This document shows, piece by piece, positions 1 through 38,408 of a stretch of 48,860 nucleotides of DNA (its first letter is position 1; each line of letters begins with the position of its first letter). The DNA lies in the NCBI GenBank assembly GCA_919902495.1, contig CAKKRC010000031.1, positions 1 through 48,860 on the forward strand, read 5' to 3'. The position numbers and the translations under genes were made by a program. A model generated the notes under the pieces. It did no database searches. It saw only the letters and a program-made list of their open reading frames with translations, and had not been told where the DNA came from. The DNA is from Nitrospiria bacterium (GTDB lineage: Bacteria > Nitrospirota > UBA9217).

Positions 1-1133
1 AGGTTCGCGATGAAGACCCCGGCGATCACAATGCTCTCGGGATGGATGCGGCCGGAGAAGGCCGCGAGGAAGAGCGTGCCGAGCGTTCCCACGGTCGCGA
101 TGAACAGCAGGAGGCCGGAGCGCAGGCGCGTCACCACCTGGAAGAGGCCGACGTTCACTACGGCGAGGTAAACGAAGAGCCCGATGAGGCTGCCCCGCCC
201 GGTGCTGACCAGGATGGGCGTCAGGTACGCGCCGAGCGCGCCGAGCACCGAGATGGGGATGCCGCGGAAAAAGACGGCAAGCACGAAGGCCGTGGCCGAC
301 ACGACCGTCAGCAGGCCGAAGCCAACGGGATTGGACAGGTAATGGTAGTAGAGCGTGGCCGCGAACACGACGCTGTACAGTACGCCGATGCCGCCCGCGC
401 CCAAGGTGTGGCGCAGCACGGTGAACCGTTCCCGGTTGATGCGGGCCGACCAGACGATCAGGGCCAGGCCGATGCACGCGCTGATGGCCAGCCTGAGCGC
501 GGGCGGGATGAGGTTCCGGTCGATGGAATACTTGACGAAGAAGCCTGCGCCGATGAAGAGCGCCAGCCCTCCCAGCCAGGCGAAGAGCTTGACGCCCGTG
601 AAGAGCTCCCAGTCCACGTTCGCCTTGAACTGCTCCCAGCGGTCAATCAGGCTCGGACCGGAGGGAGCCGCGCGCTCCGGCGCAGGTGGAGCGGTTACGG
701 CATATGACGCAGCCTGCTGAGGTGCGCGGGAAGGAGGAAGCGTGACCGGCTTCGAAGCGGGGGTTTCTTCTTCCGGCGGAAGAGGAGGATAGGACCCCAT
801 GGGCAGACCGGAAGGCGAAAGCGTTATCGGAGGCGGCTCAACCTCTGATCCCTCGGGAACGGTTGACGGGGGCGGAACAGGAGATGCGGGCGGGACCACG
901 GGAGGGGGCGGCATATCGACAGCGCGCGGGACAGGCGCGACAGTTGGTCTCATCGCCTCGACCCGTTCCGATGCGCTTTCCCGCCGCGGCGCAACTGCGG
1001 CCGCTCTCAGCTCAGCGATCTCCCGCTTGAGCTTCTCGACATTCGATTCCAGGTCGCGCCGGATGTTGAAGGACCGGACGAACAGGACTATGACGCCGAT
1101 GACCAACAGGAACTGACAGCCTTCATGACCCAC
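1..1133 (-). CDS. DUF2339 family multipass membrane protein (3' end beyond window)
   Basis: The frame is open from a GTG at 1133 to the window edge with no stop, so the C-terminus is missing. The GTG is preceded by GAGGAG six bases upstream. The protein starts with one hydrophobic segment (FLLVIGVIVLFV), then a short charged helix, then about 100 residues rich in Pro with many PPP runs. After that it becomes densely hydrophobic (WELFTGVKLFAWLGGLALF, then repeated segments such as IGVLYSVVFAATLYY). This order of anchor, Pro-rich linker and many membrane helices is that of DUF2339 proteins, which are inner-membrane proteins of unknown function. No catalytic motif is visible. It lies downstream of a permease tail remnant on the same strand. 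Confidence 0.75.
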   Translation of the reverse strand, partial: MGHEGCQFLLVIGVIVLFVRSFNIRRDLESNVEKLKREIAELRAAAVAPRRESASERVEAMRPTVAPVPRAVDMPPPPVVPPASPVPPPSTVPEGSEVEPPPITLSPSGLPMGSYPPLPPEEETPASKPVTLPPSRAPQQAASYAVTAPPAPERAAPSGPSLIDRWEQFKANVDWELFTGVKLFAWLGGLALFIGAGFFVKYSIDRNLIPPALRLAISACIGLALIVWSARINRERFTVLRHTLGAGGIGVLYSVVFAATLYYHYLSNPVGFGLLTVVSATAFVLAVFFRGIPISVLGALGAYLTPILVSTGRGSLIGLFVYLAVVNVGLFQVVTRLRSGLLLFIATVGTLGTLFLAAFSGRIHPESIVIAGVFIAN

Positions 1134-1190
1134 GCTCGTCTCCTCTGCTGCTCCGTTTCACTATGCTCCCACGCGCTGCTTCTCCGCTCC

Positions 1191-1352
1191 CTACACACAC
1201 CTCTTCTTCTTCAACACATACCCCGTCAGAAAAAAGAACATCGCCGTCAGCACCACAGCATAGACGATGGCGAGCGCAAGATAGCTCCAGTCGGTTTCTT
1301 GGTTGTTTTCTGGGAAATCGTAAATAAGTTCCGAAGCCTGACCCGTATATGT
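1191..1352 (-). pseudogene. 3' remnant of an ABC-2 permease gene
   Basis: Read on the minus strand, 1294 to 1199 matches the last 96 bases of the intact permease gene (6338 to 6243) with only a handful of mismatches by eye. It keeps the reading frame (DWSYLALAI, then FLTGYVLKKKR) and a stop at 1191. The open frame continues upstream to about 1352 with residues such as TGQASELIYDF, which do not match the intact copy but look like the periplasmic loop of a paralogous permease. There is no start and no 5' part. It is best read as the surviving end of a paralogous permease gene whose front was replaced by the neighbouring module. Confidence 0.75.
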
Positions 1353-1359
1353 CCCTCTC

Positions 1360-2349
1360 CTAGTTCGCTTGTTCGGAGCGCTCTTGCACTGCCGACAGAA
1401 ACGAAGTCCGGTTCAGCGCCAACCGATTGGTTACGAGTTGTCTAAAGTATCGCCCGTCGGCAGTTGGACGTGACATGAAAAACAGCGGAAAGTCTATTGC
1501 GTACTTGCCCCCTGCCGAAGCGCATGGACGCACACCATCGACCGTAAGAACACGCAATACAGACCCTCTCGGCGCTTTCAGTCCAAGAACGATTGCGCCC
1601 GGATCCGCGCTTGCCAGGTCTTCCAGCTCACGATAGGATCTACCATACACAGGTCTCGCCGCGGTGAGCCGTTCTTCCGAAAGTCCCATATTCTTGAGGA
1701 GCACAAGAAACTTGCGTCTCTGCAGATACCCTCCGTTCAGGTAGATACGAATCGATTCGCCAAAGGACACGCCCAAATCGCGCCATTTTCGAACATCTCC
1801 TCGCAATACCTCTTTCACACTCTCTAACCGCATGTTTCGAAGTGGATTGCTGTAGAAAACGAAAACTGGGACATGTTCAGTGACAATCTGCCGTGAATGA
1901 AATCCATCGATAAGAGCAAATACGCCATGAGCAAGAATTGCGTGACAATCAGATCGTTCGGCAGCTGCATAGATTTCCTGCTCGGAAAATGCATGGATCA
2001 TCTTAGCACCAGGAGATCCCGATGAATAAGGGGTGGTCTCTACTGCGTCGGGACATCCTCCCGAAAATGGCGCTGCTTCCAGAGCCTCCGGACAACCGCC
2101 GGAGAACGGAGCGGTCCCTGACGGGAAAGGACATCCTCCCGAAAACGGCGCTGCTTCCAGCGCGTCCGGACAACCGCCGGAGAACGGGGCGGTCCCTGAC
2201 GGGAAAGGACATCCTCCCGAAAACGGCGCTGCTTCCAGCACGCGCGGACAACCACCGGAGAACGGAGCGGTCTCGAAACAACCACCACCTTTTCCCAAAA
2301 GATCGAATTCTTCTCTGTCCATCTCAACATTGTTGGTCCACGTCATCAT
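1360..2349 (-). CDS. PstS-like substrate-binding domain protein with N-terminal Cys-rich repeats
   Basis: About 329 residues. The start is taken at the ATG at 2349, which overlaps the upstream stop as ATGA behind GGAGG; the ATG at 2346 gives better spacing, and a GTG at 2358 is also in frame. Residues about 24-113 are seven copies of a 13-residue unit ending APFSGGCP. The rest (about 115-329) resembles phosphate-binding PstS-like domains: VPVFVFYSNPL, EVLRGDVRKWRDLG, IRIYLNGG, then a late GKYAIDFPLFF. No signal peptide or membrane helix is visible, which is odd for a periplasmic binding fold. It is translationally coupled to the membrane protein gene upstream. The role is unknown; the domain call rests on motif resemblance only. 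Confidence 0.6.
   Translation of the reverse strand: MMTWTNNVEMDREEFDLLGKGGGCFETAPFSGGCPRVLEAAPFSGGCPFPSGTAPFSGGCPDALEAAPFSGGCPFPSGTAPFSGGCPEALEAAPFSGGCPDAVETTPYSSGSPGAKMIHAFSEQEIYAAAERSDCHAILAHGVFALIDGFHSRQIVTEHVPVFVFYSNPLRNMRLESVKEVLRGDVRKWRDLGVSFGESIRIYLNGGYLQRRKFLVLLKNMGLSEERLTAARPVYGRSYRELEDLASADPGAIVLGLKAPRGSVLRVLTVDGVRPCASAGGKYAIDFPLFFMSRPTADGRYFRQLVTNRLALNRTSFLSAVQERSEQAN
2011..2280 (-). repeat. In-frame 39-bp tandem repeat (7 units, 78-bp super-period)
   Basis: Seven 39-bp units encode TAPFSGGCP or EAAPFSGGCP, alternating between two spacer types (FPSG and xALE), so the DNA repeats with a 78-bp period; the motif ACATCCTCCCGAAAA recurs 78 bases apart on the plus strand. The last unit has decayed to TTPYSSGSP. 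Each full unit contributes one Cys and one Pro. Confidence 0.9.
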
Positions 2350-4190
2350 AACCTCCACCCCCTCTGCATTTCGTCAATGACAAATTGTCGATACCCCTTT
2401 TCATCAAAAGCCGTGCCTGACATCCACCGGTCTGATTGCGATGCTTGCGATAGATCGTTGTTCCTAAATAGCTCATTCAGATCTTTCTTTACTCTGGGGC
2501 AACTTGCATAGATCCTATGATATTCCTCGAAATACTGGCCCCAAATCGGATCTAGTTGCTCCCTTCCCCCTGCCATAAAGTAACTCCACAATTGATAGAC
2601 ACGAAGTTTACCGGGAGATCGCCACGTACTTCTCGATTGGTAGGTTTCGCTTTTCAGCCTTAGCTGAAGAACCGTTGCGAAACGCGACACCACGTTTCTC
2701 ATTGTGTCTTCGTCACATGCATGCGCCCTGGAGACCAATGAAAAGTATCCGATGAGATCGATCGCCTGAACATACTCTTGGGTTGCTGGTGCGTTACCTT
2801 CCTTGAGATATCGGGCAGCGGCTTCATTGAGAGACTGTATTACTTCGCTGGGTGTCCGAGGCCAAACCGATCTCCCCTTCGAATCACGGTATGCTGCCAG
2901 GTCGTACTCGAGGTACAACATCAATAACGTTGCACGGCTGTTATCTGGACGTTTTTTTCGTAAGAGCTCAACAGCGCGCTTCTCAAATTCGATCTGGTCC
3001 CTTGGTTCTGCCTCCGCCATAATATGTGCAACCGCAATGACCGGATCCTGCAGCACCAATCCCTCTTCATCCGAAGGCAGCAATACCCATCTCAGGATCC
3101 GGGATGTAATTTCATCCCACTTGCCAGGGTCTATAATGCGCTCCACGCGGTAATCTGTTATAAATCTCTTGGTGAGCGATCTCCACTGCTCCTGGGTCGT
3201 TTGACTGGCCTTGAGGGACCTCGACCGCAATTCATACACCAAGAATGAGTCTCGTCTCCAAGGAATGCGCTCAAATGCCGCTACGATATTCGAGAAGTCT
3301 TTTTCGTTCGGTGCGAGTGATGACTCAATGAGCGCAATGTATGACAATTTTGTTAACAGCGCGGCCAGCACAACGGCCATGAATGTCAGAACGGACAGAG
3401 TAATCAAGGAGGTAAGGGCTGCGATCATTCGCCGGTATTCTACGCGAAGGTTTGCGTGCAACCTGCGAATCAACTCATTGAGTGACCACTGCTTCAAGGA
3501 GTCCCGCGGGACCAACGTCGTAACTAAATAATGAAGGAGTGCTGCTGAAAAAGGAACCGCGCCGGCAACCTTGCTATTAGATTGATGAAAACAGTACCAA
3601 AGAACAGTTCCTCCGATAACAAGTCCCCAAATCGCGAAACAAAACAGATTTGCAGTCCTGGTGTAGTTGCGATCCGTTATCGTCGATATGCGTGCTCCGT
3701 GTGATGCGCTGTCTTTTCCGACTAATAGATAAACGCGGTCGCCTACATTGTTTACCTCGAAAGTAACGACCACATCAATTACCGCATCTGTTTCCACGGC
3801 GGTAGTTATTTCATTCGGCTCTGCACCGGCTTGCGGAGCTCCTTTTGGGGTCACGGTAACAAGGGCGATAGCTTTGCCTGACGACGTGGGCAATTGTCCC
3901 GATGCAAAGTACCGTTCGTTAACTTGAGCGCGGATCGTTCCCCCTCCAAGGCAGCCCGCAACAAGGATCAGTTGCTGTCTACAACCATACCGGTTTTTGG
4001 CAGAGAGTCGAACTTGAAACGTTCTTGAAGGTGCATCTGCTACAAACAGCGAATCATTGTTCGTGATCTCTGACGAAGGGATATCCAGACCGTCAATGCT
4101 CAGTGAGGGAACATCTACTTGAGAGAACCTTGCCGGCTCAATATACGATAATTCTAGCGCGATCATGTTTTTTGGTGTCCGCATTGCCAT
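2346..4190 (-). CDS. Membrane-anchored protein of unknown function
   Basis: 614 residues, starting at an ATG behind AGGGG. Residues 1 to about 180 look like beta-rich extramembrane sequence (FQVRLSAKNRYG, ALVTVTPKG, VVVTFEVNNVGDRVYLLVG). A first membrane segment lies near 185-205 (NLFCFAIWGLVIGGTVLWYC) and a second near 262-287 (LTSLITLSVLTFMAVVLAAL). The remaining 320 residues are helical and soluble-looking. I do not recognise a family. Base composition is visibly poorer in G+C than the flanking genes, suggesting acquisition. It overlaps the PstS-like gene by a few bases, so the two probably form one functional module. Confidence 0.7.
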   Translation of the reverse strand: MAMRTPKNMIALELSYIEPARFSQVDVPSLSIDGLDIPSSEITNNDSLFVADAPSRTFQVRLSAKNRYGCRQQLILVAGCLGGGTIRAQVNERYFASGQLPTSSGKAIALVTVTPKGAPQAGAEPNEITTAVETDAVIDVVVTFEVNNVGDRVYLLVGKDSASHGARISTITDRNYTRTANLFCFAIWGLVIGGTVLWYCFHQSNSKVAGAVPFSAALLHYLVTTLVPRDSLKQWSLNELIRRLHANLRVEYRRMIAALTSLITLSVLTFMAVVLAALLTKLSYIALIESSLAPNEKDFSNIVAAFERIPWRRDSFLVYELRSRSLKASQTTQEQWRSLTKRFITDYRVERIIDPGKWDEITSRILRWVLLPSDEEGLVLQDPVIAVAHIMAEAEPRDQIEFEKRAVELLRKKRPDNSRATLLMLYLEYDLAAYRDSKGRSVWPRTPSEVIQSLNEAAARYLKEGNAPATQEYVQAIDLIGYFSLVSRAHACDEDTMRNVVSRFATVLQLRLKSETYQSRSTWRSPGKLRVYQLWSYFMAGGREQLDPIWGQYFEEYHRIYASCPRVKKDLNELFRNNDLSQASQSDRWMSGTAFDEKGYRQFVIDEMQRGWRL

Positions 4191-4270
4191 TTAATCCCCT
4201 TGGGCTGTACGGTCAGGCCTGGAAAGCTGGAAAGTTTTCCCTTTCCCTCTTCCCTGGCAATATCCTCAGC

Positions 4271-4315
4271 CTACGCATATCTCTTCTTCTTGAGCACATA
4301 CCCCGTCAGAAAGTA
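4271..4315 (-). pseudogene. Second 3' tail remnant of the ABC permease gene
   Basis: Minus-strand bases 4315 to 4271 encode YFLTGYVLKKKRYA and a stop, matching the last 14 codons of the intact permease (YFLTGYVLKKKRYV at 6235). The match ends abruptly at about 4315, where the beta-propeller gene begins to overlap in another frame. It is too short to be functional. Confidence 0.75.
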
Positions 4316-5490
4316 CCTGACCGCACTCGGACCCTGTTGACCAGATCGGTAGTCTCGATCACCTGTTCCTTGCCTTCCCGGTCCAGCCTGATCAGGTATT
4401 TTCCGTTCGAGTAAACGATCCCGCCGTTCTCCGTCAGATCGAAGTCGAGCACTCCTTTTTTGAGGCAGGTGAAGCTCCCGTCTTTCTCCCTCCGGGTCAG
4501 CTCCCAATCACGGGGCGCAATACCGGGGAATGCACCGCCTTTCGCGCGGTTCTCCTTGAGCGTCTGTTCCGCGTTGATCAGGTTGCCGTTGATGAAGATT
4601 TCCTTGGGGTCCTTGTTCTGCGCCTTCATGGGATTCGGCCCGGCCGTGGAAAGGGGCTCGCCGGTATAGCGCATGCTGAAGAACTGCAGGAACGAGTAGA
4701 TGGCGCGAATCAGGCGCCAGGGAATGAGCAAGAAATCCTTGAAACTCATCTTTTCCGAACCGGGTTTTTTGTGGGGCCGTTTGATGAAAGAGAGCGTGTC
4801 TTCGCAGTCCAGGCGCGGCAGGAAGCAATCATGCTTGGCCAGAGAGACCAGTTCGGTGATCGTTCCGGAATCGAGGTCGAGCCGGTTGATCGTCCGCTCG
4901 CCCACCCCGATGAACCGCCCGTCACCTGACTTGCCGACGCCGGCAGAATCATAGTAGATGGATCGGCCGGTCCTTTTTCCCCAGACCGGATTTTCGTCCA
5001 CACAGTCGCCCTCGGTCACTTTCCGGTATCGGGAGCTCTTCGGCTCGAATAGGGCAAGATGCCGCCCCCAGGCGGAATCCTGGACGGAGACGACAATCTC
5101 CTCGGTTTGCGGGTGGTAATCGAGGTTCAGGAACGCGATCTTGTGATCATGGATGATGTGGCCTTCGGTTGCAGCGTCATCTGCCGGATTCTTCAGGAAT
5201 ATCCCCGAATAGTCCTCCACGGACAAGGAATAAAGGATCTTATTGTCCTTCGCGAAAGCGAGTCCATTCACCGTAGCACGTGCGTCGATTGCCTCGGCAT
5301 CATGCCCGGGCTGCAGTTGATGCCCGCGAAAAGCTGCGCCCATACCTTCTGTCTTCCATGCGTTCTTCTTCTGTATCGTCTCCCGGTTCTGCTTGTATTT
5401 TTCCAGGTAATGGCAGGTCGCCAGGGAAGAGGAATTTCCGGTACAACAGCCTAGTTTGTTTCTTGCGGCAAATACGATCAAGTCATCCAT
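4306..5490 (-). CDS. WD40/TolB-like beta-propeller protein, probably 3'-altered
   Basis: 394 residues from an ATG behind AAAGGAACGGG. The sequence has the rhythm of beta-propeller blades: VNGLAFAKDNKILYSLS, AFLNLDYHPQTEEIVVSVQD, VDENPVWGKRTGRSIYYDSA, VLDFDLTENGGIVYSNGKYL. No signal peptide is evident; the N-terminus has a GCCTG motif. The last codons (RSGTF and stop) come from the permease tail remnant read in another frame, so the original C-terminus was probably lost in the junction. The function is unknown; propellers usually serve as binding scaffolds. Confidence 0.65.
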   Translation of the reverse strand: MDDLIVFAARNKLGCCTGNSSSLATCHYLEKYKQNRETIQKKNAWKTEGMGAAFRGHQLQPGHDAEAIDARATVNGLAFAKDNKILYSLSVEDYSGIFLKNPADDAATEGHIIHDHKIAFLNLDYHPQTEEIVVSVQDSAWGRHLALFEPKSSRYRKVTEGDCVDENPVWGKRTGRSIYYDSAGVGKSGDGRFIGVGERTINRLDLDSGTITELVSLAKHDCFLPRLDCEDTLSFIKRPHKKPGSEKMSFKDFLLIPWRLIRAIYSFLQFFSMRYTGEPLSTAGPNPMKAQNKDPKEIFINGNLINAEQTLKENRAKGGAFPGIAPRDWELTRREKDGSFTCLKKGVLDFDLTENGGIVYSNGKYLIRLDREGKEQVIETTDLVNRVRVRSGTF

Positions 5491-5583
5491 TGCTCATCCC
5501 GTTCCTTTCTGCCGATTCAGGGGTCGTCCCGGGTCGGGCTTTGAAATTGACATTCTTAGCCTAAGCACCTTGGGGTCACCCAT

Positions 5584-6132
5584 TCACCGCTTTCGGGTCG
5601 CCCGATATACTGCCTGGCGTTCCCGCGCTATGAAGCCAATCTTTCTCTTCGGCTTTTCCTCAACCTCAATGATCTGTCTTATCGCCTCAAAGACGATCTG
5701 GAATTGTCCATCGTATTTCTTTTCGAGATCGCTCAACTTTCGCGCCAGGTCTTTATGTGTTGTCATCAACTCCCGCAGTTTTACAAAAGTCCTCATTATC
5801 TGAATGTTTACTTCAATGGCTCGATCGCTGTTTAAAACACCGGACAGCATGGCTATGCCTTGTTCGGTAAAGACATAAGGCATATATTTACGGTGTTTCC
5901 CTCGACCAGCCTTTAAGGTCGCAAAATGCGACCTTAAAGATTCAAGCTCTTCTTCGGACAGCTGGTACATAAAATCCGTGGGGAAACGCTTCACATTGCG
6001 GCGAACCTGCTCGTTCAGCCGCTTGGTAGTCACGTTGTAAAGAGCCGCCAGGTCGCTGTCAAGCATGACCTTTTTGCCGCTGATCAACAATATCTTTTTC
6101 TCGATTACCTCAATCGGTACGAGCGATTTCAT
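5584..6132 (-). CDS. ORF6N domain protein
   Basis: 182 residues, ATG behind CAGGAGAA. The N-terminal half is a typical ORF6N domain (about residues 8-95): VMLDSDLAALYNVTTKRLNE, RRNVKRFPTDFMYQLSEEE and PYVFTEQGIAMLSGVL. The C-terminal half is helical and Lys/Arg-rich. ORF6N domains are DNA-binding modules from phage and mobile-element proteins, often found as lone genes in bacterial chromosomes. It interrupts the space between the ABC permease and the propeller gene and supports the view that this stretch has taken in foreign DNA. Confidence 0.88.
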   Translation of the reverse strand: MKSLVPIEVIEKKILLISGKKVMLDSDLAALYNVTTKRLNEQVRRNVKRFPTDFMYQLSEEELESLRSHFATLKAGRGKHRKYMPYVFTEQGIAMLSGVLNSDRAIEVNIQIMRTFVKLRELMTTHKDLARKLSDLEKKYDGQFQIVFEAIRQIIEVEEKPKRKIGFIARERQAVYRATRKR

Positions 6133-6234
6133 GGATTCTCCTGTTTTCTGTTAACGCGTCAGATGTTGCCCGGCGCCGGCAGCACCAACTTGAAGTCATA
6201 ATTTGTGATTTCAAGTCCAGAAACTCCCTATCCG

Positions 6235-7047
6235 TTACACATACCTCTTCTTCTTCAATACATACCCCGTCAGAAAATAGAACATCGCCGTCAGCACGAC
6301 AGCATATCCGATGGCGAGCGCAAGATAGCTCCAGTCGGCATCAGAACCGCGGAGGGTCGAGCTGACCTGGGACATCTTCGTTCCATAAGGGCTGAAGGTG
6401 GGCCAGAGCATGTACAGCGCGTCCACGACGAGCTTGAGGAGCTTCAGCAGCGGCAGGAATGCGCTCTCGCCCGCAGCCTTGATGCCCGCGACAAGCATCA
6501 CCTTGAGGCAGTAAAACAACCCTTCCTGCACCACGAGCAGGACGAAGAGCGCCATGACGGGATGGAAGATAACGGAGAGGAAGGTCGCGAAGGCCATGAG
6601 GCTCATGGCCTGGAAATAGCCGTTCAGGAGGATGTATACGATGCCGGACTGGAACGGGATGCTCCAGATCATACCGAGAATCGACGTGATGAGCAGCGCG
6701 ACAGCGAAGAGCACACCGGCAACGAGCCCGGCGGAGAGGAAGCTCGACAGGAGCCAGACCTCGGGCAGGCAGGGCTTGGTGAAGACCATCTTGACCGACC
6801 GATCGCGGATGTGCTGCGAGATGAGCATCAGGCCCAGGCCCACGGTCACGACCGTGGCGAAGCCGGTCACGAGGTGCATCGCGGTCTTGATGAGTTCCAG
6901 GTGCTGGGACTTGGAGGTGAAAAGGAGCGCGGGGATGGACGTGAGGCCCATGATGACGACGATGAAGATCGCAGCGGCGACCAGCAGGCGATTTCTTCTG
7001 TAGAAGATGAGGTTCGTTTCGATATTCGCCCGGATCTGCGCGTACAC
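6235..7047 (-). CDS. ABC-2 type transporter permease
   Basis: 270 residues from a GTG at 7047 behind GGAGG, one base beyond the upstream ATPase stop. At least six membrane segments are visible, e.g. LLVAAAIFIVVIMGLTSIP, VTGFATVVTVGLGLMLI, LLSSFLSAGLVAGVLFAVAL and the final YLALAIGYAVVLTAMFYFL followed by KKKRYV. The large loop after the first helix and the late paired helices are those of ABC-2 exporter permeases. With the ATPase it should form an exporter of unknown substrate in the inner membrane. Its 3' end is duplicated at 1199-1294 and 4271-4315. Confidence 0.85.
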   Translation of the reverse strand: MYAQIRANIETNLIFYRRNRLLVAAAIFIVVIMGLTSIPALLFTSKSQHLELIKTAMHLVTGFATVVTVGLGLMLISQHIRDRSVKMVFTKPCLPEVWLLSSFLSAGLVAGVLFAVALLITSILGMIWSIPFQSGIVYILLNGYFQAMSLMAFATFLSVIFHPVMALFVLLVVQEGLFYCLKVMLVAGIKAAGESAFLPLLKLLKLVVDALYMLWPTFSPYGTKMSQVSSTLRGSDADWSYLALAIGYAVVLTAMFYFLTGYVLKKKRYV

Positions 7048-7048
7048 G

Positions 7049-7948
7049 TCAGGCCCCTCCTTTCAGGATGGAAAAGAAGGAATCCTCCAGCGACGCGCGC
7101 TTGAGCGTGCATTCAATGAGCTTGCGGCCCGGGATGGTCATGAGCTTCATGAAGTCGTCCAGACGCTCCGCGGGGATCTCGCCCTTGACGCTCGTGGGCG
7201 TGCGAACGAGGACCTTCAGAAAATCGGGCAGCGGATCGAAGGGCTCGCACTCGACGTGGTAGGTCTCGAGACTCGTGCCGCGAAGGCGCGCCATCTCGTC
7301 CTGCACGATCACCTTTCCCCTGTTCATGATGGCGGCGCGGTTGCAGATCATCTCGATCTCCGACAGGACGTGGGAGTTCAGCACGATCGTGGCGCCGTTC
7401 TTATTCAGCTCCAGCAGCACGTCGCGGAACTCCTTGACCGCCAGGGGGTCGAGTCCCCGTGTGGGCTCGTCGAGGAACACGAGCTTCGGGTTGTTGATGA
7501 GGCACTGCGCGATGCCGACCTTCTGCTTCATGCCCTTGGAGCACTTCGAGACCCGGAGGTCCTTGAACTCACCCAGACCCACGCGGTCGATGGCGCGCGT
7601 GACGGTGAGGCCGCTGTCGATGCCCTGCAGCCGGGCGTAGTAGCGGATGGCCTCCTGCACGGTGAGGTACTGGTGATAGTGCGGCTCTTCGGGGAGGTAG
7701 GCGATGTCGCGGAAGAGGCTGTTCCCCGGCTCGGGCGTGCGGCCGCAGACGGAGACCGTCCCCGAGTCGGGCCGGACCAGGCCGAGGAAGCAGTACATGG
7801 CCGTGGACTTGCCCGCGCCGTTCGGACCCAGGAGGGCGAAGATGTCCCCTTCCTGCACGGTGAGCGTGAAGGAATCGAGCGCCCGGATGGTACCCCTAAA
7901 GAGGCCCTTCCGGAAACCAACGGAGACGTTCTCGGCAGAGACCATCAT
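7049..7948 (-). CDS. ABC transporter ATP-binding protein
   Basis: 299 residues. Walker A is GPNGAGKST (41-49), the Q-loop region follows (YLPEEPHYHQYLT), the signature is CSKGMKQK (136-143), Walker B is LVFLDEP (156-162) and the switch His lies in LNSHVLSEIE. A C-terminal extension of about 80 residues follows the ATPase core, as in CcmA/NatA-type exporter ATPases. The start overlaps the stop of the thioredoxin-like gene as ATGA, so the three genes 8808-6235 are one translationally coupled operon. Confidence 0.92.
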   Translation of the reverse strand: MMVSAENVSVGFRKGLFRGTIRALDSFTLTVQEGDIFALLGPNGAGKSTAMYCFLGLVRPDSGTVSVCGRTPEPGNSLFRDIAYLPEEPHYHQYLTVQEAIRYYARLQGIDSGLTVTRAIDRVGLGEFKDLRVSKCSKGMKQKVGIAQCLINNPKLVFLDEPTRGLDPLAVKEFRDVLLELNKNGATIVLNSHVLSEIEMICNRAAIMNRGKVIVQDEMARLRGTSLETYHVECEPFDPLPDFLKVLVRTPTSVKGEIPAERLDDFMKLMTIPGRKLIECTLKRASLEDSFFSILKGGA

Positions 7949-8808
7949 TTCATGCAGAACTCCTTGTTGAGCGCCGTGATGACCTCAGCGTCCGTCTTCC
8001 CCGCGAGGTCCATGGTCTTGAGCTTCGCCTTGATGTCCTTCGAGGTCTTGCAGGTGCATTCCATCAGCTTGTGGGTGCACCCGCAGGGGCAGTTCATCTT
8101 CTCCGCGATCTCCCGGGCGCGGCCGGGAGGCACATCGTCCTCGGGGTCGGTCTTCTTCTCCTCCGTCATTGTCGCGGCCGAGGCGACCTGCGGCCCGGTC
8201 GTCCGCTGCAGGCGGAGGAAGGCTTCTTTAGTGATGCCCGTTCCAGCGCTGATCGCCGCGAGCGCGGCCCGAAAGGGTGCCTCGAAGGCGACGTCGGCGT
8301 TCTGGATCGGCCCCACTTCGTAGAGCTGGACGGTCCCATCAGCGCCGATGAAGACCGTGGTGGGGAATGCGCGGACCGCCAAGGCCTTCTGCGCGGCGCC
8401 CTTGTCGATCGCCACGGGATAAGTGACGCCGTAGTACTTCAAGAAGTCCCGCACCGCGTCGGCGCTCTCGTTCGCGTCGATGCCGATCATCACGAAGGGC
8501 TCGTCCTTATGCTTCTCCGCGAACCGGACGAGCTCCGGCATCTCTTCCTTGCAGGGCCCGCACCAGGTGGCGAAGAAGTTCAGGACGATGGCCTTCTTGC
8601 CCACGTGCTCGGAGAGGACGAACTTCTCGCCGTTCAGCAGATCGAGCGTCAGTTCGGGTGCAGGTCTCCCCTGCCACGCGGCCGGCTGGCGGAGGAAGTC
8701 GAACTGCTGCTTCTCCTCCTCGGTGGGCTGTCTCTTTGCCGAGAAATGGAACAGGAAGGCGGTGCAGAAAAGGATCAAAGCGATGATGCCTGCGGTTCTG
8801 GTGCGCAA
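7945..8808 (-). CDS. TlpA/ResA-like thioredoxin with C-terminal CcmH-like Cys domain
   Basis: About 287 residues from a TTG at 8808 behind GAGGGAGGG; the longer frame to 9060 runs back into intergenic sequence and lacks a sensible N-terminus. A signal anchor (GIIALILFCTAFLF) is followed by a thioredoxin fold with NFFATWCGPCKEE (CxxC near residues 83-86) and the cis-Pro loop AFPTTVFI. After a linker comes NCPCGCTHKLMECTC with repeated Cys, then a helix ending in FCMK; this resembles the PCYCGC/CcmH-type redox domain. The protein is probably periplasmic and reduces or delivers thiols, for example in cytochrome c or metal-centre assembly; this role is inferred. Confidence 0.8.
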   Translation of the reverse strand: MRTRTAGIIALILFCTAFLFHFSAKRQPTEEEKQQFDFLRQPAAWQGRPAPELTLDLLNGEKFVLSEHVGKKAIVLNFFATWCGPCKEEMPELVRFAEKHKDEPFVMIGIDANESADAVRDFLKYYGVTYPVAIDKGAAQKALAVRAFPTTVFIGADGTVQLYEVGPIQNADVAFEAPFRAALAAISAGTGITKEAFLRLQRTTGPQVASAATMTEEKKTDPEDDVPPGRAREIAEKMNCPCGCTHKLMECTCKTSKDIKAKLKTMDLAGKTDAEVITALNKEFCMK

Positions 8809-9002
8809 GATCCCTCCCTCGCATGCTTGGTGCTGATCGTAAACGTACGACGGGTAATGATAAAGCGGTCTTGCGCCGGGAGACAGGAGAAGTGCGGGAA
8901 CAGCCGCTCGCAGAAGGGTGTCTCCGGTGGAATGAGAATAGTACAGACCATAAGAAAATGCAAGGATTACGGCGGGGTATTTTAGGGGTATTCGATGACG
9001 AA

Positions 9003-9033
9003 GAAGGCCGGAGAAAATAGATCTCCGGCCTTC
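9003..9033 (-). terminator. GGCCGGAGA-type terminator hairpin (copy 1)
   Basis: A perfect 12-bp stem (9003-9014 with 9022-9033) around a 7-nt loop. It lies downstream of the htpG tail remnant just as a related hairpin lies downstream of intact htpG, so it appears to have been duplicated with the tail. Confidence 0.7.
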
Positions 9034-9068
9034 AATGTTCATTCTTTCGATACTATTCACACCGCATC

Positions 9069-32081: not shown

Positions 32082-32333
32082 TTCATCCTCCCCGGGAACA
32101 CTGCTTCGCGTCAGGCCATGGCAGCGCCTGTATGCAGATTATTATTGTTCTTGATTATCCACCCGGGGACAGTTGCAGGTCAACAATAATAGAAGGTTGT
32201 TCGAAGATTAATGGCAGGAGCTGCACAAAAATACTGTTGTGCGTTACGGTCACACCGCGATCTTACCCGCTCTGGCAGGCGCGTTTCTCCGCGTGCGACC
32301 ACATCGCCCGACGGAACTGATATTCACGCTCCG

Positions 32334-35300
32334 CTACTGCCCGCTAAACCACTTGACCGCATCGCGCGCCGAGGCCTGGTCGAACTTGAAGCGGAACTTG
32401 ATGAACGGCCCTTCACTGGTGAAGTCCGCGCGGGAGAAGTCGCGGTCCCTGAAGCCGGTGATGTTGTAGCCCACGCTGATCCAGAAGTTCTTGCCCAGGT
32501 TGAAGCCCGTGGACACGCTGGTCAAGTAGTCGGTCATGCCGATGGCCCAGGAATGGAGCATGCTGCCCCGGACGCCGATGTCCCACCGCTTGGTGAGGTC
32601 GTACCGGAGTTCGAGGCCCGTGAGGTCCGTATATCCGCTGTAGTCCGTGCTGTCGATGGTCTCGAGGACGTACTTGGCGCCGTACTGCAGGGAGACCTGC
32701 ACGCGGTTGCCGCTGGTGTAGTTGGCGACGAAATTGTTCACGAACCGCTTGCTGTTGTAATTAGTGCCGCCGCCCTGCTGTTCGTTGAAGAGATAGTCGA
32801 GGCGGTCGAGGATGATCCAGCGCGTCTCGCGCGGCCGATAGGCCAGGCCGAACCGCAGGTCGCCGGACTGCCGCTCTGCGCCGGAAACATAGTCGCTCTT
32901 GAAGTACTGAAGCCCGGCGGCAAGGCCGATGCCGGGACGCGGCTCGCCGTTGGCGCCCATCAGGAGTCCGGTCTTCTCTTCGCTGTCGGAGAAGCGGCGC
33001 TCGACCCGTCCGTTCCAGGACCACTTCTCCTCCCGGTACCCGGCCCCGAGGGAGACGGCCGTGAAGTCCTCGGTGCCGCCCGAGGCGGGCGGTACGTTCA
33101 CGTTGAGCGGCGTGTTCCCGGGATGCCGGAAGGTCGTGCTGCGGTCCAGTCCCGCGTCGAAGGACCACTTCTTGTTCAGCTGCCAGCCCTGCTTCAGGCC
33201 CGTGGTGGAGAAGAGCCGGACGCCGTTCTCGGTCACCTGCTGCTCCATCGTCGTGCTGATCTGCCCGCCGGTCCAGGGCGAAGCGCGCAGGCCGACGCGC
33301 GAGGTGGTGGAATCCTGATCGCTGCCATGGGTCCATTCCTGGTCGGCGAAGAGCGTCGCCGTGCTGTTGAGCTTGTGGTCCACCCCGACGGTCGTCCGCG
33401 TCGGATAATCGCCGTTGGCATTGTAGCCTCCCACCGACTGCTCATGCTTGAACCGCAGCGACGTTCTGTCCGTCACCTTGTAGTTGGCGCCGAAATAGAC
33501 CTGTTCGGAACGCTGCGCTTCGCTGCCGGGGAAGGAATCCTCGGCGTGGCGCAGGCCCGCCGTAAGCGCATACTGGGCCGCGGTGTACCGGCCCCGCACC
33601 TCGGCCACGTCGCGGACGGCGCCCGTGCCCAGGTTCTCCGACCGGAAGGCCTCGCCGCCCGCTGCCACGGACGAAGTCAGCCGGTAGTCAAGGTCCACGC
33701 CCATCTTGCGGGTCCCGGTCTCGCTCCCGTTCTGCTGGCCCAGGCCGAAGCCCGCCGCCTGTTCCCGCACGTAGGCGCGGCTGTCCAGCTTCGGCGACCG
33801 GTGCGTCGCCTCGGCCAGATAGGCAGTGCCGTCCGTTTTGGCCGATGTGCCGGCCTGCTCGGTCTTGGTGGCAGCGACCTCGCCTCGCAGCTTCGTGCCT
33901 CCGCCCAGGTCCACCGTGGCGTCTACTCCGTCGAGGTCACCCGATCCGCCGACGCGGCCCTCATGGACATGCGTGGCGCCGATCTCCACCTTGTTCTCCA
34001 GAAGCTTCACGGCGCCGCGTCCGCCGTAGGTCAGGGAGTTGTCCACGGAATCGAAGGACTCGTACTCCACGACGATAAAGATGGGATTGAAGTTCCCGTC
34101 GCGGCTGAAGACCGGCTGTTTGAAGAAGATGGAGCCCGATTCGTAGTCAATGGTGTAGTCGAGGTGGCGGCTCAGCGGCTGCGATGAGACCACGACCTCG
34201 CTGTGAAACCGGTCGCGGGCCTCGATGGTCACCCGCTCGGAATTGAGCGCGATGTACTTGCGCGACAAATGGTAGAGGCCCGAGGTGCCGTCGCCCGGGA
34301 TCTCGTCCCGGATAAAGGCCTGGTTGGTCTCGGCGGCGAAGACATTGTACTGGAACCGCTCGCCCTTCATCTCCGACTTGAAGCCGGTAAAGGTCCGGCT
34401 GTACCGGGAAAGCTCGGAGACCGTGAGGCCGGTCGCGTAATCGCCGAAGAGGGCGTAGAACTGGCCGCGCTCCAGCTTGACGTAGAGGCTCTTGGCGCTC
34501 GACGCGTCGTACCGCTGCTCGGTCCCGTCCCCGTACAGGAGATAGTACTTGTTCGGATCGATGGCCTGGTGGAGGTTCTGGGGGTCCCGCCCCTGGTGCC
34601 GCGCGCTGTCGTAGGCGAGGGTGAGGAGCCACTCGCCCTTGATCCGGCCCTTGGCATAGAAGGCGACCCTGCCGTCCTCGGTGAAGTTCTCCTCGCCGCC
34701 GCCGCCCGCGCCGAAGCTCTCCATGTTGCCCTTGACCGTGTTGTATCCCACCGTACCCTCGCCCAGGCCGACGAGGATCCAGTCGCGGTCCTCCGGTGCA
34801 AGCCAGACCCGGATGTCCCTGGTCTCGTTCGTCATCGGTATCCGGACGACCGCTTCGCCGGACTGCGTGGTAGGCTCAAGCTCGATGAGCGCGATGCCGT
34901 CGTCGCCGACATGGTACTGCAGACGGTCGCTCGTCGACGCCGTGAGCGGCGCATTCTTCAGATCTTCGACGCGCTTCCGGGGCAGGTGGGGCGGGTCGAC
35001 GGAATATTCGCCGAGGACGCCCTCCCGGGCGGGAGGGCCGTCCTTGTCCAGTACCCGGACCGCCACGACCGGGGGGGTCTTGCCGTCCGCGAACAGGCTG
35101 GACCGCTCGGGAACGAAGATCGCCTGCACCGGGTTCCCCGAATAATGGACGATGCGGGTCATGCGCTCGACCACCAGCCCGGCCTCGTCGGTAACGACGG
35201 CCTCGAAGCGGTTGTCGCCCTCCACAAGATGAAGCCGGCTCCAGGTGCTCACCGCCACACTGCCGTCCTCGCGCTTCGCTGTGCCTTCGAACGAGATGGG

Positions 35301-38300
35301 GTCCACCGCTGCGCCGTTCAGGGAAAGGGCGAGCGAGTGGCCAGGGCCATGTTTGATCGCCGCCCCGGTGATCGGAGCGGAGGGGTTGAGGTTCTCGGGC
35401 GGCCAGAGCCATGCGAGGCCGGCCGTCGTGGTCTGGAGCCATACAGCGTTATAGTCGGGCATCTTCTTCCTGTCGGCGGCGTCCTTCGCCGGCTTTTCCG
35501 CGGGCCATTCTTCCCCGGGCCGGAGGCCCAGCGTGGCCACGGCCTTCATCCCGCTCGATGCCTTCTCGCTCTTCAGCACCGAGACGGCCACGACCTGCAG
35601 GGTCTGGACCCTCAGCTCCACGCGGCGGTTCCTGGCCCGTCCCGCCGCTGTCTTGTTGCTCGCCACGGGCTCGTCGGGCCCCTTTCCCTCATAGGTCACC
35701 TGTTCGGGCTTCAGCTTCAACGCTTCCGCGAGATACGCGCCGACCGCAGCCGCGCGCGCGAAGGACAGGGCATGGTTGTCCGGGTACTTCTTCTTCAGCC
35801 TGCCGCTGATCTTCTGGGGATCTGTATGGCCGGTGACAACGATATGCTTCACGCGCACCTTTTTGATCCTGGCGACCAGACGGTCCAATTCCCGCTTGTC
35901 CTGCTTTGAAAGGTCCGCGCTCCCGCTCTGAAACTTGGGATGAAGAACGATGTCGGGTGCGGTCCGGAGGTCCTGCCGGACGCTGCGGACGACCGCGGTC
36001 TTTACGACGGGGGTCCGCTCGTTCTTTCCCCCGGGTGTGTCGACCGTGAGCAGGGCGCTGGTGGAGAGCTCGCCCAGAGGACCGTCGAGCGGGACCGCGG
36101 CGTCGAACTGGAGCGTTCCCTCCCAGTCCGCCGGGATCTCCGCGAAGCGGAACGTGACCGCGCCCTCCGCCTCCTGCGGCTCGTCGATGAGGATGACGGC
36201 CGCGGCGCTCCCGGTCGGCCGGCTGACCGCTCCGTCAGCTCCGTCCGGCTGCGTCGTCTTCTTGCCGGTGAAGATGGTGCTGCCCGTCTGGTAGGTCGCG
36301 CCCGGGGGGAGCATGATGGACAGTTTGAGGTTCCGCGCGGGCACCGCGCCTACGCGCATGGGCACGTTGTATTCGATGAGGTCCGTTCCCTGGTCCATTC
36401 GTGGTCCGCCGTCCCCGGCCTTCTTCAGGGACGTGGTGATCTCGATGCCCACCTCGCCGATGATCTTCGGTTTGAGGCCCGCGTGGAAGTCCGCGCGCCA
36501 GAGCGTGCCGCCCTGGACGTCGACGAACTGGGAGAAGGCGCTGCCGGCGAACCGGGTGTTCTCCTCGCAGGCCATGATCTCGTATTTCCGGGGAACCGTG
36601 GCCAGGTCGATCTGGACCACGTGCGTCCCGGGCTCGACCGCCGCGAAGTGGTACATGCCGTCCTTGTCCGTTACCACGAAGGTGCCGTCCTCGCGGAAGA
36701 TCCGGATGCCGGCAAGGCCGGTCTCCTCGCTCCGCTCCTTGTCACCGCAGCCATCGACGATGACCCGTCCGACGATGGTCGCCTTGCTGCGGAACAGGTC
36801 CTCGGTGACCATCACCGTTGCCGAGGCGACATTGGAGGACGCGCCGAGCAGGCTCGTGGCGACCGCGCTGTTGACCGCCTTCCCGGGTTTGGCACCTGCT
36901 CCCACTTCCGCGACATACGTGATGACGCCGCGGCCGCTTGCAGCGAGGGAGCCCACGGCGAACGTGAGGCCGCGCCCGTCCGGGGACACGACCGGGTCGG
37001 CAAGCACAACGCCGTTCAGACGGCCGGAGCCCTTCCGATAGCGGAAGCCGTGCGGCAGCCGGTCATTGACGATCACGCCGGGCGCAAGCGCGATGGTCGA
37101 CGTATTCTCTACGGTCAGACCGTAGGGCACGAAGTCGCCGACGGACGCGGTCTCCTTCCCGGCTGTCTTGATGAGCCAGAGGCCCAAGCCCACCGGATCG
37201 ACGGGGATGTCGATGTGGAGCGCCGGACCGGGATTCACGATGAACTGCTCGCCGCGCGAGCCGGGCACGACGATGGCGAACGGTCCGCCGGGAAGGGCCT
37301 GGAGCACCGACGTCGGCACGACCGACGGCGCCCGGTAGCCGGCCGGGGGGACGATGAGGAACCGGTAGGTGCCGGGCGTGATGAAGGGGAACCGGAACCC
37401 GCCCGCCGGCATGACGTAGACCTTGCCGCCGCTATCGGTCACGGTCCCGCCGGTGACCACCGTCGCGGGGAAGATACTGGTGCCGTTGTCGCCGTAGACC
37501 GTTGCCGGGGCGCCGGCCCCGTCGACCAGGGAAACCGACACGCCGTTCACCGGAAGGCCCGTGGTGCTGTCGAAGACGATGCCGTAGGGATCGACCAGGA
37601 CCGATGCGGCGCGCGTGTCCGTGCCGTCGGCGACGTCGACATAGGACCCGTCGATCCGGGAGCTGACCGCGACGCTCAGGGTCCCGTTCCCGTTCACGGC
37701 AGGGCCGGGGCCGGTCTGGATGTAGCCGGTGAAGATCCCGGTGTTCGGGCCGGTCTCGTACAGCCGGACGACCTCCGCGTCGCCGGTGGCGCTGACACCG
37801 AGCGTCACCAGGACCGTCTCGATCGCGGTTGTATTGATGTTCTGGTCAATGTCCGTCAGGCGGATGAACAAAGGATCGCCTTCGTGGTAAAGGCCGCCGG
37901 GCACCAGCGGCACCGCTGCGAGCGGGATGGCCGTGCCGGACGGGAACTGGACCGGCTGCGGCATGGGGAGGAACGGCCCTCCGCTCGTCGCGGTCGTGCT
38001 GCGGTCCGTCGTGGAGACGAACGTCGGAACCGCCGACGGCGCGGTCGGCGCGTACTGCAGAAGCTCGAGCGTCGACGGCGTGCGCCAGGCCGTGGTGATC
38101 AGCGAAACGGTATTGGATGATACGATCACCGGGCCTCCGGAACCGGGAACGAACTGGACGGTCGCGGTATTGCTGATGACCGTGCCGGAAGGCGTTGCGG
38201 CCCATCCGGCGGAAGCGAACAACAGGATAAAGATGAATGAGAACGATAGAGCGTGCAATAAGGTCGTGCGTTGGATCGTCTGCCCGCGGTCGCAGGGCGG

Positions 38301-38408
38301 CGGCGTGTACATTCCCGCAAAAAAGCGCAGCACGGCGCAGAGCCGGGCAAGGATGCCCGGACCGCTGCGCCGCGTTGCGGCTGCTCTATGGGAATGACGT
38401 TCTATCAT
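32334..38408 (-). CDS. Giant outer-membrane protein: DUF11/Ig modules, OmpA domain and C-terminal beta-barrel
   Basis: 2,024 residues from an ATG behind GAAGGAAAG; a later ATG (residue 33) would give a more usual signal peptide (ALSFSFIFILLFASAGWAA). Domains in order: beta-rich N-terminal region (70-400); DUF11-like module (about 405-540, VGDFVPYGLTVENTSTIALA); Cna-B/SpaA-like module (545-610, GLAGIRIFREDGTFVVTDKD); OmpA-like peptidoglycan-binding domain (about 820-935, HIVVTGHTDPQKI, NHALSFARAAAVGAYL, GRARNRRVELRV); Ig-like region (1015-1160); and a long beta-barrel (about 1240-2024) of alternating aromatic strands. It probably spans the outer membrane and grips the wall. It is last in a four-gene exported-protein operon and may secrete or anchor the other three products. 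Confidence 0.8.
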   Translation of the reverse strand: MIERHSHRAAATRRSGPGILARLCAVLRFFAGMYTPPPCDRGQTIQRTTLLHALSFSFIFILLFASAGWAATPSGTVISNTATVQFVPGSGGPVIVSSNTVSLITTAWRTPSTLELLQYAPTAPSAVPTFVSTTDRSTTATSGGPFLPMPQPVQFPSGTAIPLAAVPLVPGGLYHEGDPLFIRLTDIDQNINTTAIETVLVTLGVSATGDAEVVRLYETGPNTGIFTGYIQTGPGPAVNGNGTLSVAVSSRIDGSYVDVADGTDTRAASVLVDPYGIVFDSTTGLPVNGVSVSLVDGAGAPATVYGDNGTSIFPATVVTGGTVTDSGGKVYVMPAGGFRFPFITPGTYRFLIVPPAGYRAPSVVPTSVLQALPGGPFAIVVPGSRGEQFIVNPGPALHIDIPVDPVGLGLWLIKTAGKETASVGDFVPYGLTVENTSTIALAPGVIVNDRLPHGFRYRKGSGRLNGVVLADPVVSPDGRGLTFAVGSLAASGRGVITYVAEVGAGAKPGKAVNSAVATSLLGASSNVASATVMVTEDLFRSKATIVGRVIVDGCGDKERSEETGLAGIRIFREDGTFVVTDKDGMYHFAAVEPGTHVVQIDLATVPRKYEIMACEENTRFAGSAFSQFVDVQGGTLWRADFHAGLKPKIIGEVGIEITTSLKKAGDGGPRMDQGTDLIEYNVPMRVGAVPARNLKLSIMLPPGATYQTGSTIFTGKKTTQPDGADGAVSRPTGSAAAVILIDEPQEAEGAVTFRFAEIPADWEGTLQFDAAVPLDGPLGELSTSALLTVDTPGGKNERTPVVKTAVVRSVRQDLRTAPDIVLHPKFQSGSADLSKQDKRELDRLVARIKKVRVKHIVVTGHTDPQKISGRLKKKYPDNHALSFARAAAVGAYLAEALKLKPEQVTYEGKGPDEPVASNKTAAGRARNRRVELRVQTLQVVAVSVLKSEKASSGMKAVATLGLRPGEEWPAEKPAKDAADRKKMPDYNAVWLQTTTAGLAWLWPPENLNPSAPITGAAIKHGPGHSLALSLNGAAVDPISFEGTAKREDGSVAVSTWSRLHLVEGDNRFEAVVTDEAGLVVERMTRIVHYSGNPVQAIFVPERSSLFADGKTPPVVAVRVLDKDGPPAREGVLGEYSVDPPHLPRKRVEDLKNAPLTASTSDRLQYHVGDDGIALIELEPTTQSGEAVVRIPMTNETRDIRVWLAPEDRDWILVGLGEGTVGYNTVKGNMESFGAGGGGEENFTEDGRVAFYAKGRIKGEWLLTLAYDSARHQGRDPQNLHQAIDPNKYYLLYGDGTEQRYDASSAKSLYVKLERGQFYALFGDYATGLTVSELSRYSRTFTGFKSEMKGERFQYNVFAAETNQAFIRDEIPGDGTSGLYHLSRKYIALNSERVTIEARDRFHSEVVVSSQPLSRHLDYTIDYESGSIFFKQPVFSRDGNFNPIFIVVEYESFDSVDNSLTYGGRGAVKLLENKVEIGATHVHEGRVGGSGDLDGVDATVDLGGGTKLRGEVAATKTEQAGTSAKTDGTAYLAEATHRSPKLDSRAYVREQAAGFGLGQQNGSETGTRKMGVDLDYRLTSSVAAGGEAFRSENLGTGAVRDVAEVRGRYTAAQYALTAGLRHAEDSFPGSEAQRSEQVYFGANYKVTDRTSLRFKHEQSVGGYNANGDYPTRTTVGVDHKLNSTATLFADQEWTHGSDQDSTTSRVGLRASPWTGGQISTTMEQQVTENGVRLFSTTGLKQGWQLNKKWSFDAGLDRSTTFRHPGNTPLNVNVPPASGGTEDFTAVSLGAGYREEKWSWNGRVERRFSDSEEKTGLLMGANGEPRPGIGLAAGLQYFKSDYVSGAERQSGDLRFGLAYRPRETRWIILDRLDYLFNEQQGGGTNYNSKRFVNNFVANYTSGNRVQVSLQYGAKYVLETIDSTDYSGYTDLTGLELRYDLTKRWDIGVRGSMLHSWAIGMTDYLTSVSTGFNLGKNFWISVGYNITGFRDRDFSRADFTSEGPFIKFRFKFDQASARDAVKWFSGQ

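Follow-up and report, generated by a model that had tools for sequence, protein, structure and literature searches.

A low-GC gene pair between permease remnants in a Nitrospiria bacterium: a putative coupled cassette of a membrane protein and a PstS-derived repeat protein

The window, a stretch of 48,860 nt from a Nitrospiria bacterium, contains two overlapping genes, here called gene A and gene B, close to its first position. These genes and the features that surround them are all on the minus strand and are as follows.

1192-1304, minus strand: tail 2, a permease 3′ remnant with about 36 in-frame codons, located upstream of the DUF2339 gene
1360-2358, minus strand: gene B, 332 aa counted from GTG 2358
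1459-1902, minus strand: PstS-like second-lobe region of gene B, about 150 residues, with profile and PDB fold matches
1996-2268, minus strand: repeat array of gene B, seven tandem 13-aa (39-nt) units
2346-4190, minus strand: gene A, a long open frame of 614 aa
4263-4320, minus strand: tail 1, a permease 3′ remnant of 15 codons (YFLTGYVLKKKRYA, then a stop) between the WD40-like frame and gene A
4306-5490, minus strand: WD40/beta-propeller-like frame with weak matches to DPPIV_N (E 0.013) and WD40 (E 0.034), ending in tail 1
5584-6132, minus strand: ORF6N-domain gene (Pfam ORF6N, E 1.3e-33; PADLOC PDC-S05, E 7.3e-57)
6235-7047, minus strand: intact ABC-type permease gene, the source or sister of both tails

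Genes A and B overlap by ATGA, as the initial annotation had reported, and the overlap consists of the gene A stop and the first ATG of gene B. The likelier start of gene B is ATG 2349 or 2346, directly 3′ of a GGAGG sequence. Together the two open frames span 946 codons, and the 614-codon frame of gene A has a chance probability of 1.4e-14 at the given composition under an independent-base model. The overlap is the one feature that suggests joint action of the two proteins; no conservation evidence bears on joint action because no relative of gene A or of the gene B repeat array was found. Promoters and terminators are no more numerous than in shuffled sequence. In the parts of the literature available to the search, no account of the pair was found and the gene B motif FSGGCP is absent.

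The pair differs from its neighbours in base composition. The overall GC content is 49% in gene A and 54% in gene B. At third codon positions, the GC content (GC3) is 0.51 in gene A and 0.50 in gene B, compared to a mean of 0.81 in 17 neighbouring genes (sd 0.07, lowest 0.64), which gives z values of about -4.2 and -4.3, respectively. The AT-richness noted initially is therefore upheld, and it extends to the ORF6N gene, which has a GC3 of 0.57 and is within the same low-GC3 stretch. Since the low-GC insert also spans this gene, A and B are not the only foreign-looking genes there. The WD40-like frame has a GC3 of 0.71, nearer the host value, and its relatives are limited to weak partial matches in two of 60 other genomes.

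Permease tails are present on both sides of the pair, in agreement with the initial annotation. Tail 2 is 94% identical to the permease 3′ end over 103 nt (1192-1294), with a protein-level match of 81% (E 1.2e-12). In tail 1, approximately 43 nt (4270-4312) match the query 1186-1330 with 88% identity (E 6e-9). The C-terminal reading frame of the permease is kept in both tails and both are oriented as the intact permease is. The pair sits between them and is thereby flanked by direct repeats derived from the target gene, in the form of permease 3′ copies.

The intact permease gene adjoins an ABC ATPase gene (7049-7948). Its label as a permease is based on this neighbour and on its hydrophobic sequence, as the gene matches no Pfam family. 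A relative with 64% identity is present in genome G006, which is outside the genus, and none is present in the genus mates G001 and G002. G001 also has no long match to the ATPase region. Next to the ATPase, at 7945-9060 on the minus strand, is a thioredoxin/redoxin-type protein with a C-terminal CcmH match (Pfam E 1.6e-7) that looks like an unusual fusion.

In G001, the DUF2339 protein is 84% identical to that of the window and a 44-nt remnant of the same permease tail lies upstream of it. Beyond this remnant are unrelated genes, including two membrane-protein frames.

L037 6806-11396: cargo at the DUF2339 flank of G001, consisting of an alpha/beta-hydrolase-like protein, a 370-aa protein, and membrane proteins of 379 aa and 392 aa

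The four frames nearest the tail have GC3 values of 0.53-0.70, compared to 0.83 for the DUF2339 gene of the same genome. The 379-aa membrane protein weakly resembles HYDIN-like Ig domains (E 3.6e-4, under the Pfam cut-off), and the 392-aa membrane protein matches no Pfam family. Because the same DUF2339 flank and remnant border unrelated genes in G001, the site looks prone to rearrangement. In G004 and G006, both outside the genus, DUF2339 is present without a permease tail upstream, with only about 220 bases of upstream contig in G006. No clean empty site was found among the flanks of G001, G004 and G006.

The composition, the tails and the different cargo in G001 support the initial view of the pair as an inserted cassette. 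Integration machinery was not seen: no integrase or transposase family is present among the eight proteins scanned with Pfam at 1-9060, and no terminal or inverted repeats were seen at the borders of the pair. The flank motif was also considered as a spread-out mobile repeat and was rejected, as the genome contains only one more imperfect copy. About 5.2 kb contains three permease 3′ ends, all pointing the same way. Together with the lack of an integrase and of terminal repeats, these ends would also fit a history in which the permease region was duplicated in tandem and later underwent deletions; the pair would then be older in the lineage and unusual in composition. This history is unlikely, given that GC3 differs by more than four standard deviations and that gene A is absent from G001 and G002, the two genus mates tested. 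The preferred reading is that A and B form a genuine, translationally coupled two-gene cassette that recently entered the lineage, with a probability of roughly 0.7 for anatomy and acquisition jointly. As to the route, we infer that it entered upstream of the DUF2339 gene, at a point at which repeated insertion or rearrangement would have left the permease 3′ fragments behind.

The gene A protein has hydrophobic segments near residues 178-202, 208-228 and 253-293 in hydropathy analysis, and gene B has none. The N-terminal part of gene A, approximately 175 residues, is probably beta-rich, and the C-terminal part, from about 290 to 614, is predicted to be helical. Structure prediction, which the initial annotation had proposed as a check, is only partly informative. 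The single-sequence model of gene A is poor (mean pLDDT 40.5), with few N-terminal strands and with helices past residue 174, and the model of gene B is poor except at about residues 160-285.

No family can be named for gene A, which is congruent with the initial annotation. It has no match in Pfam, in PADLOC or among PDB sequences, its NCBIfam matches are not above the cut-off, and its PHROGs matches are insignificant. No relative is present in 98 related genomes besides its own, including the genus mates G001 and G002. The same is true of 394 other genomes of the phylum, both for the full protein and for its C-terminal 174 aa, with a single chance match in G124 set aside. The G124 match (E 0.0036, or 5e-4 with a shorter query) crosses a stop; the region overlaps small unrelated frames, one of which is toxin-antitoxin-like by eye. 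No relative is present in plasmids, phages, viral contigs or the collection of genome contigs, where the genome-contig and viral-contig searches used short exact peptides and detect close relatives only. The search for the same pair elsewhere, suggested at the outset, was negative in every collection (relatives, phylum, plasmids, phages, viral contigs and genome contigs), an outcome that the initial annotation had named as counting against its reading, and conservation is therefore unusable as evidence of function.

These searches also bear on a defence role, which the initial annotation had raised together with a stress role and which gained no support. In a defence cassette, gene A would be a membrane effector and gene B a sensor of a phage product. 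The low-GC insert, the variable site and the adjoining ORF6N gene, which matches the PADLOC candidate PDC-S05, fit such a cassette. However, neither A nor B has a PADLOC match in a library of described systems only, gene A has no phage, viral or plasmid relative, and no other defence gene is named among the Pfam-scanned neighbours, four of the proteins having been run through PADLOC. A defence cassette is improbable.

Gene B is related to PstS. Matches are present in nine of 98 other genomes and in a paralogue in its own genome, with a best non-self E value of 7.6e-8. A profile of PstS-like proteins built without gene B scores 39.3 bits on gene B, compared to -4.9 for the highest-scoring part of the reversed gene B sequence. 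This profile contains seven of the ten non-self matches, as L004, L005 and L010 were excluded as near copies of kept rows. The match begins at profile position 115 of 294, and the hhalign match likewise covers the second lobe only. In PDB searches with the model of gene B, the top matches are PstS proteins with Z scores up to 12.2, although the alignment behind the model contained PstS relatives, which favours the PstS fold in the model. Before residue 160 the pLDDT is below 50. The profile score and Z scores support a second-lobe PstS fold.

The PstS-type proteins (TIGR02136 subfamily; PDB 4q8r, 4gd5 and 1twy) share the fold of the second lobe with gene B at about residues 151-298, where gene B also has the PstS motif order SNP, W..LG, DGV.P and Y. 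Unlike these proteins, gene B has repeats at its N-terminus and lacks the first lobe with its N-terminal ligand-binding segments. The ligand loop in the PstS second lobe is of the SGT type. This loop is altered in gene B, where 'nggylqrrkf' faces 'edgsgtrdaf' of 4q8r/4gd5 in a weak alignment. Gene B has no signal peptide or lipoprotein signal, and no 19-residue window has a mean hydropathy above 1.3. No pstCAB neighbours are present among the 28 window proteins scanned with Pfam. The TIGR02136 score is 11.5 bits, below the membership cut-off of 206.6. Gene B is PstS-derived, yet it is not a PstS. The initial description of a PstS-like fold without a signal peptide holds for the second lobe and for the missing signal, and the first lobe is unsupported. 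Lacking the segments of the first lobe and the usual ligand loop, gene B is unlikely to be a standard phosphate sensor; the same missing or changed segments argue against simple anion sensing as proposed in the initial annotation.

The repeat array comes after a short start and precedes the PstS-like region in the protein. The octapeptide APFSGGCP is identical in six of the seven units, and the last unit is degenerate (TPYSSGSP). The six identical octapeptides differ at synonymous sites only and each of these units contains one Cys. Two unit types with different synonymous codons alternate, and the array has a higher-order period of 78 nt. Over the seven units, core differences number 12, 18 and 98 at codon positions 1, 2 and 3, respectively, where the pairwise counts are non-independent. 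In the gene B frame, synonymous and non-synonymous differences number 92 and 103, and this synonymous share (92/195) is the highest of the six frames. The opposite-strand repeat frame (GQPPENG) is not far behind, with 69 synonymous and 106 non-synonymous differences (69/175). As this opposite-strand frame also keeps much of its sequence, selection on the gene B peptide is favoured, not proven. The repeat DNA was also considered as a folded RNA and is not special in this respect (z -1.19).

The repeat pattern, defined as a pair of stretches that encode FSGGCP with a spacing of 39 nt, is present only in the genome of origin among 295 genomes and in none of the viral contigs. One genome contig with the pattern, L045, was rejected as a relative, as the strand that matches faces a lipoprotein-like frame in which GQPPE is repeated. 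Gene B has no match in phages or viral contigs and no Pfam match, including to the pentapeptide model. In plasmids, there are two weak matches, both to the repeat part only.

L059 2197-3609 and L060 2812-3699: Dermacoccaceae plasmid A.F..GC repeat proteins, annotated as pentapeptide-repeat or hypothetical

Like gene B, these proteins have a 13-residue period and an A-x-F-x-x-G-C skeleton. Their E values to gene B are only 9e-3 and 4e-2, the alignment contains no PstS part, and the likeness may be convergence. The 13-residue period is no multiple of five, yet one of the two is annotated as a pentapeptide repeat.

The array itself could be the working part of gene B, as a multi-site Cys peptide that serves as a metal or thiol ligand or as cores of modified peptides, with the lobe as carrier and gene A as exporter or anchor. 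The single Cys in each of the six 13-aa units with an identical octapeptide fits such a peptide. This role is improbable, as no maturation enzyme is named among the scanned neighbours, gene A matches no transporter family, and no cleavage site is known.

The partial domain may have a further explanation. Gene B could be a PstS relative that is in decay or scrambled, a one-time binding-protein gene whose signal peptide and first lobe were lost and which gained a repeat expansion, leaving a pair without maintained function. The start of the profile match at position 115 of 294, the replaced SGT-type loop and the absence of the pair from all collections searched are congruent with decay. The frames of A and B are nonetheless open over all 946 codons, six of the seven units have kept the octapeptide without change although their synonymous sites have diverged, and the start signals and the coupling look intact. 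Gene B may be non-functional, and a decaying orphan, although doubtful, is about as likely as the adaptor or sensor pair described below.

In the proposed working mode, A and B would form a membrane-associated adaptor or sensor pair. Gene A would encode the integral membrane protein that anchors the complex, built of an N-terminal domain, roughly three hydrophobic segments and a helical domain at the C-terminus. Gene B would be non-secreted, with the tandem Cys-peptide array joined to the PstS-type second lobe. Each repeat would offer the same docking (or thiol) site, and the lobe derived from PstS would no longer carry phosphate but bind a protein or a ligand instead. This is the likeliest working mode, a best guess that itself has a low probability. 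The whole best explanation, which joins the recent coupled cassette to this working mode, is tentative and falls well short of even odds. The most novel form, which is very unlikely, is a new type of membrane signalling pair: half of a binding lobe pair, released from transport, would be fused to a multivalent array of identical Cys octapeptides, and this array would dock on the unrelated membrane protein encoded by gene A or gate it.

If the pair works, it would illustrate how a transport-type binding lobe can be put to new use with its first half lost and no export, fused to repeats under apparent constraint; the corresponding site of a sister species contains other cargo of membrane proteins. 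If the pair is idle, it is a clear orphan insert whose most striking similarity, to PstS, is half a domain. Elsewhere in the window, at 32334-38408, a 2024-aa minus-strand frame lies opposite three plus-strand frames (32211-34187, 34203-35909 and 35940-38120).
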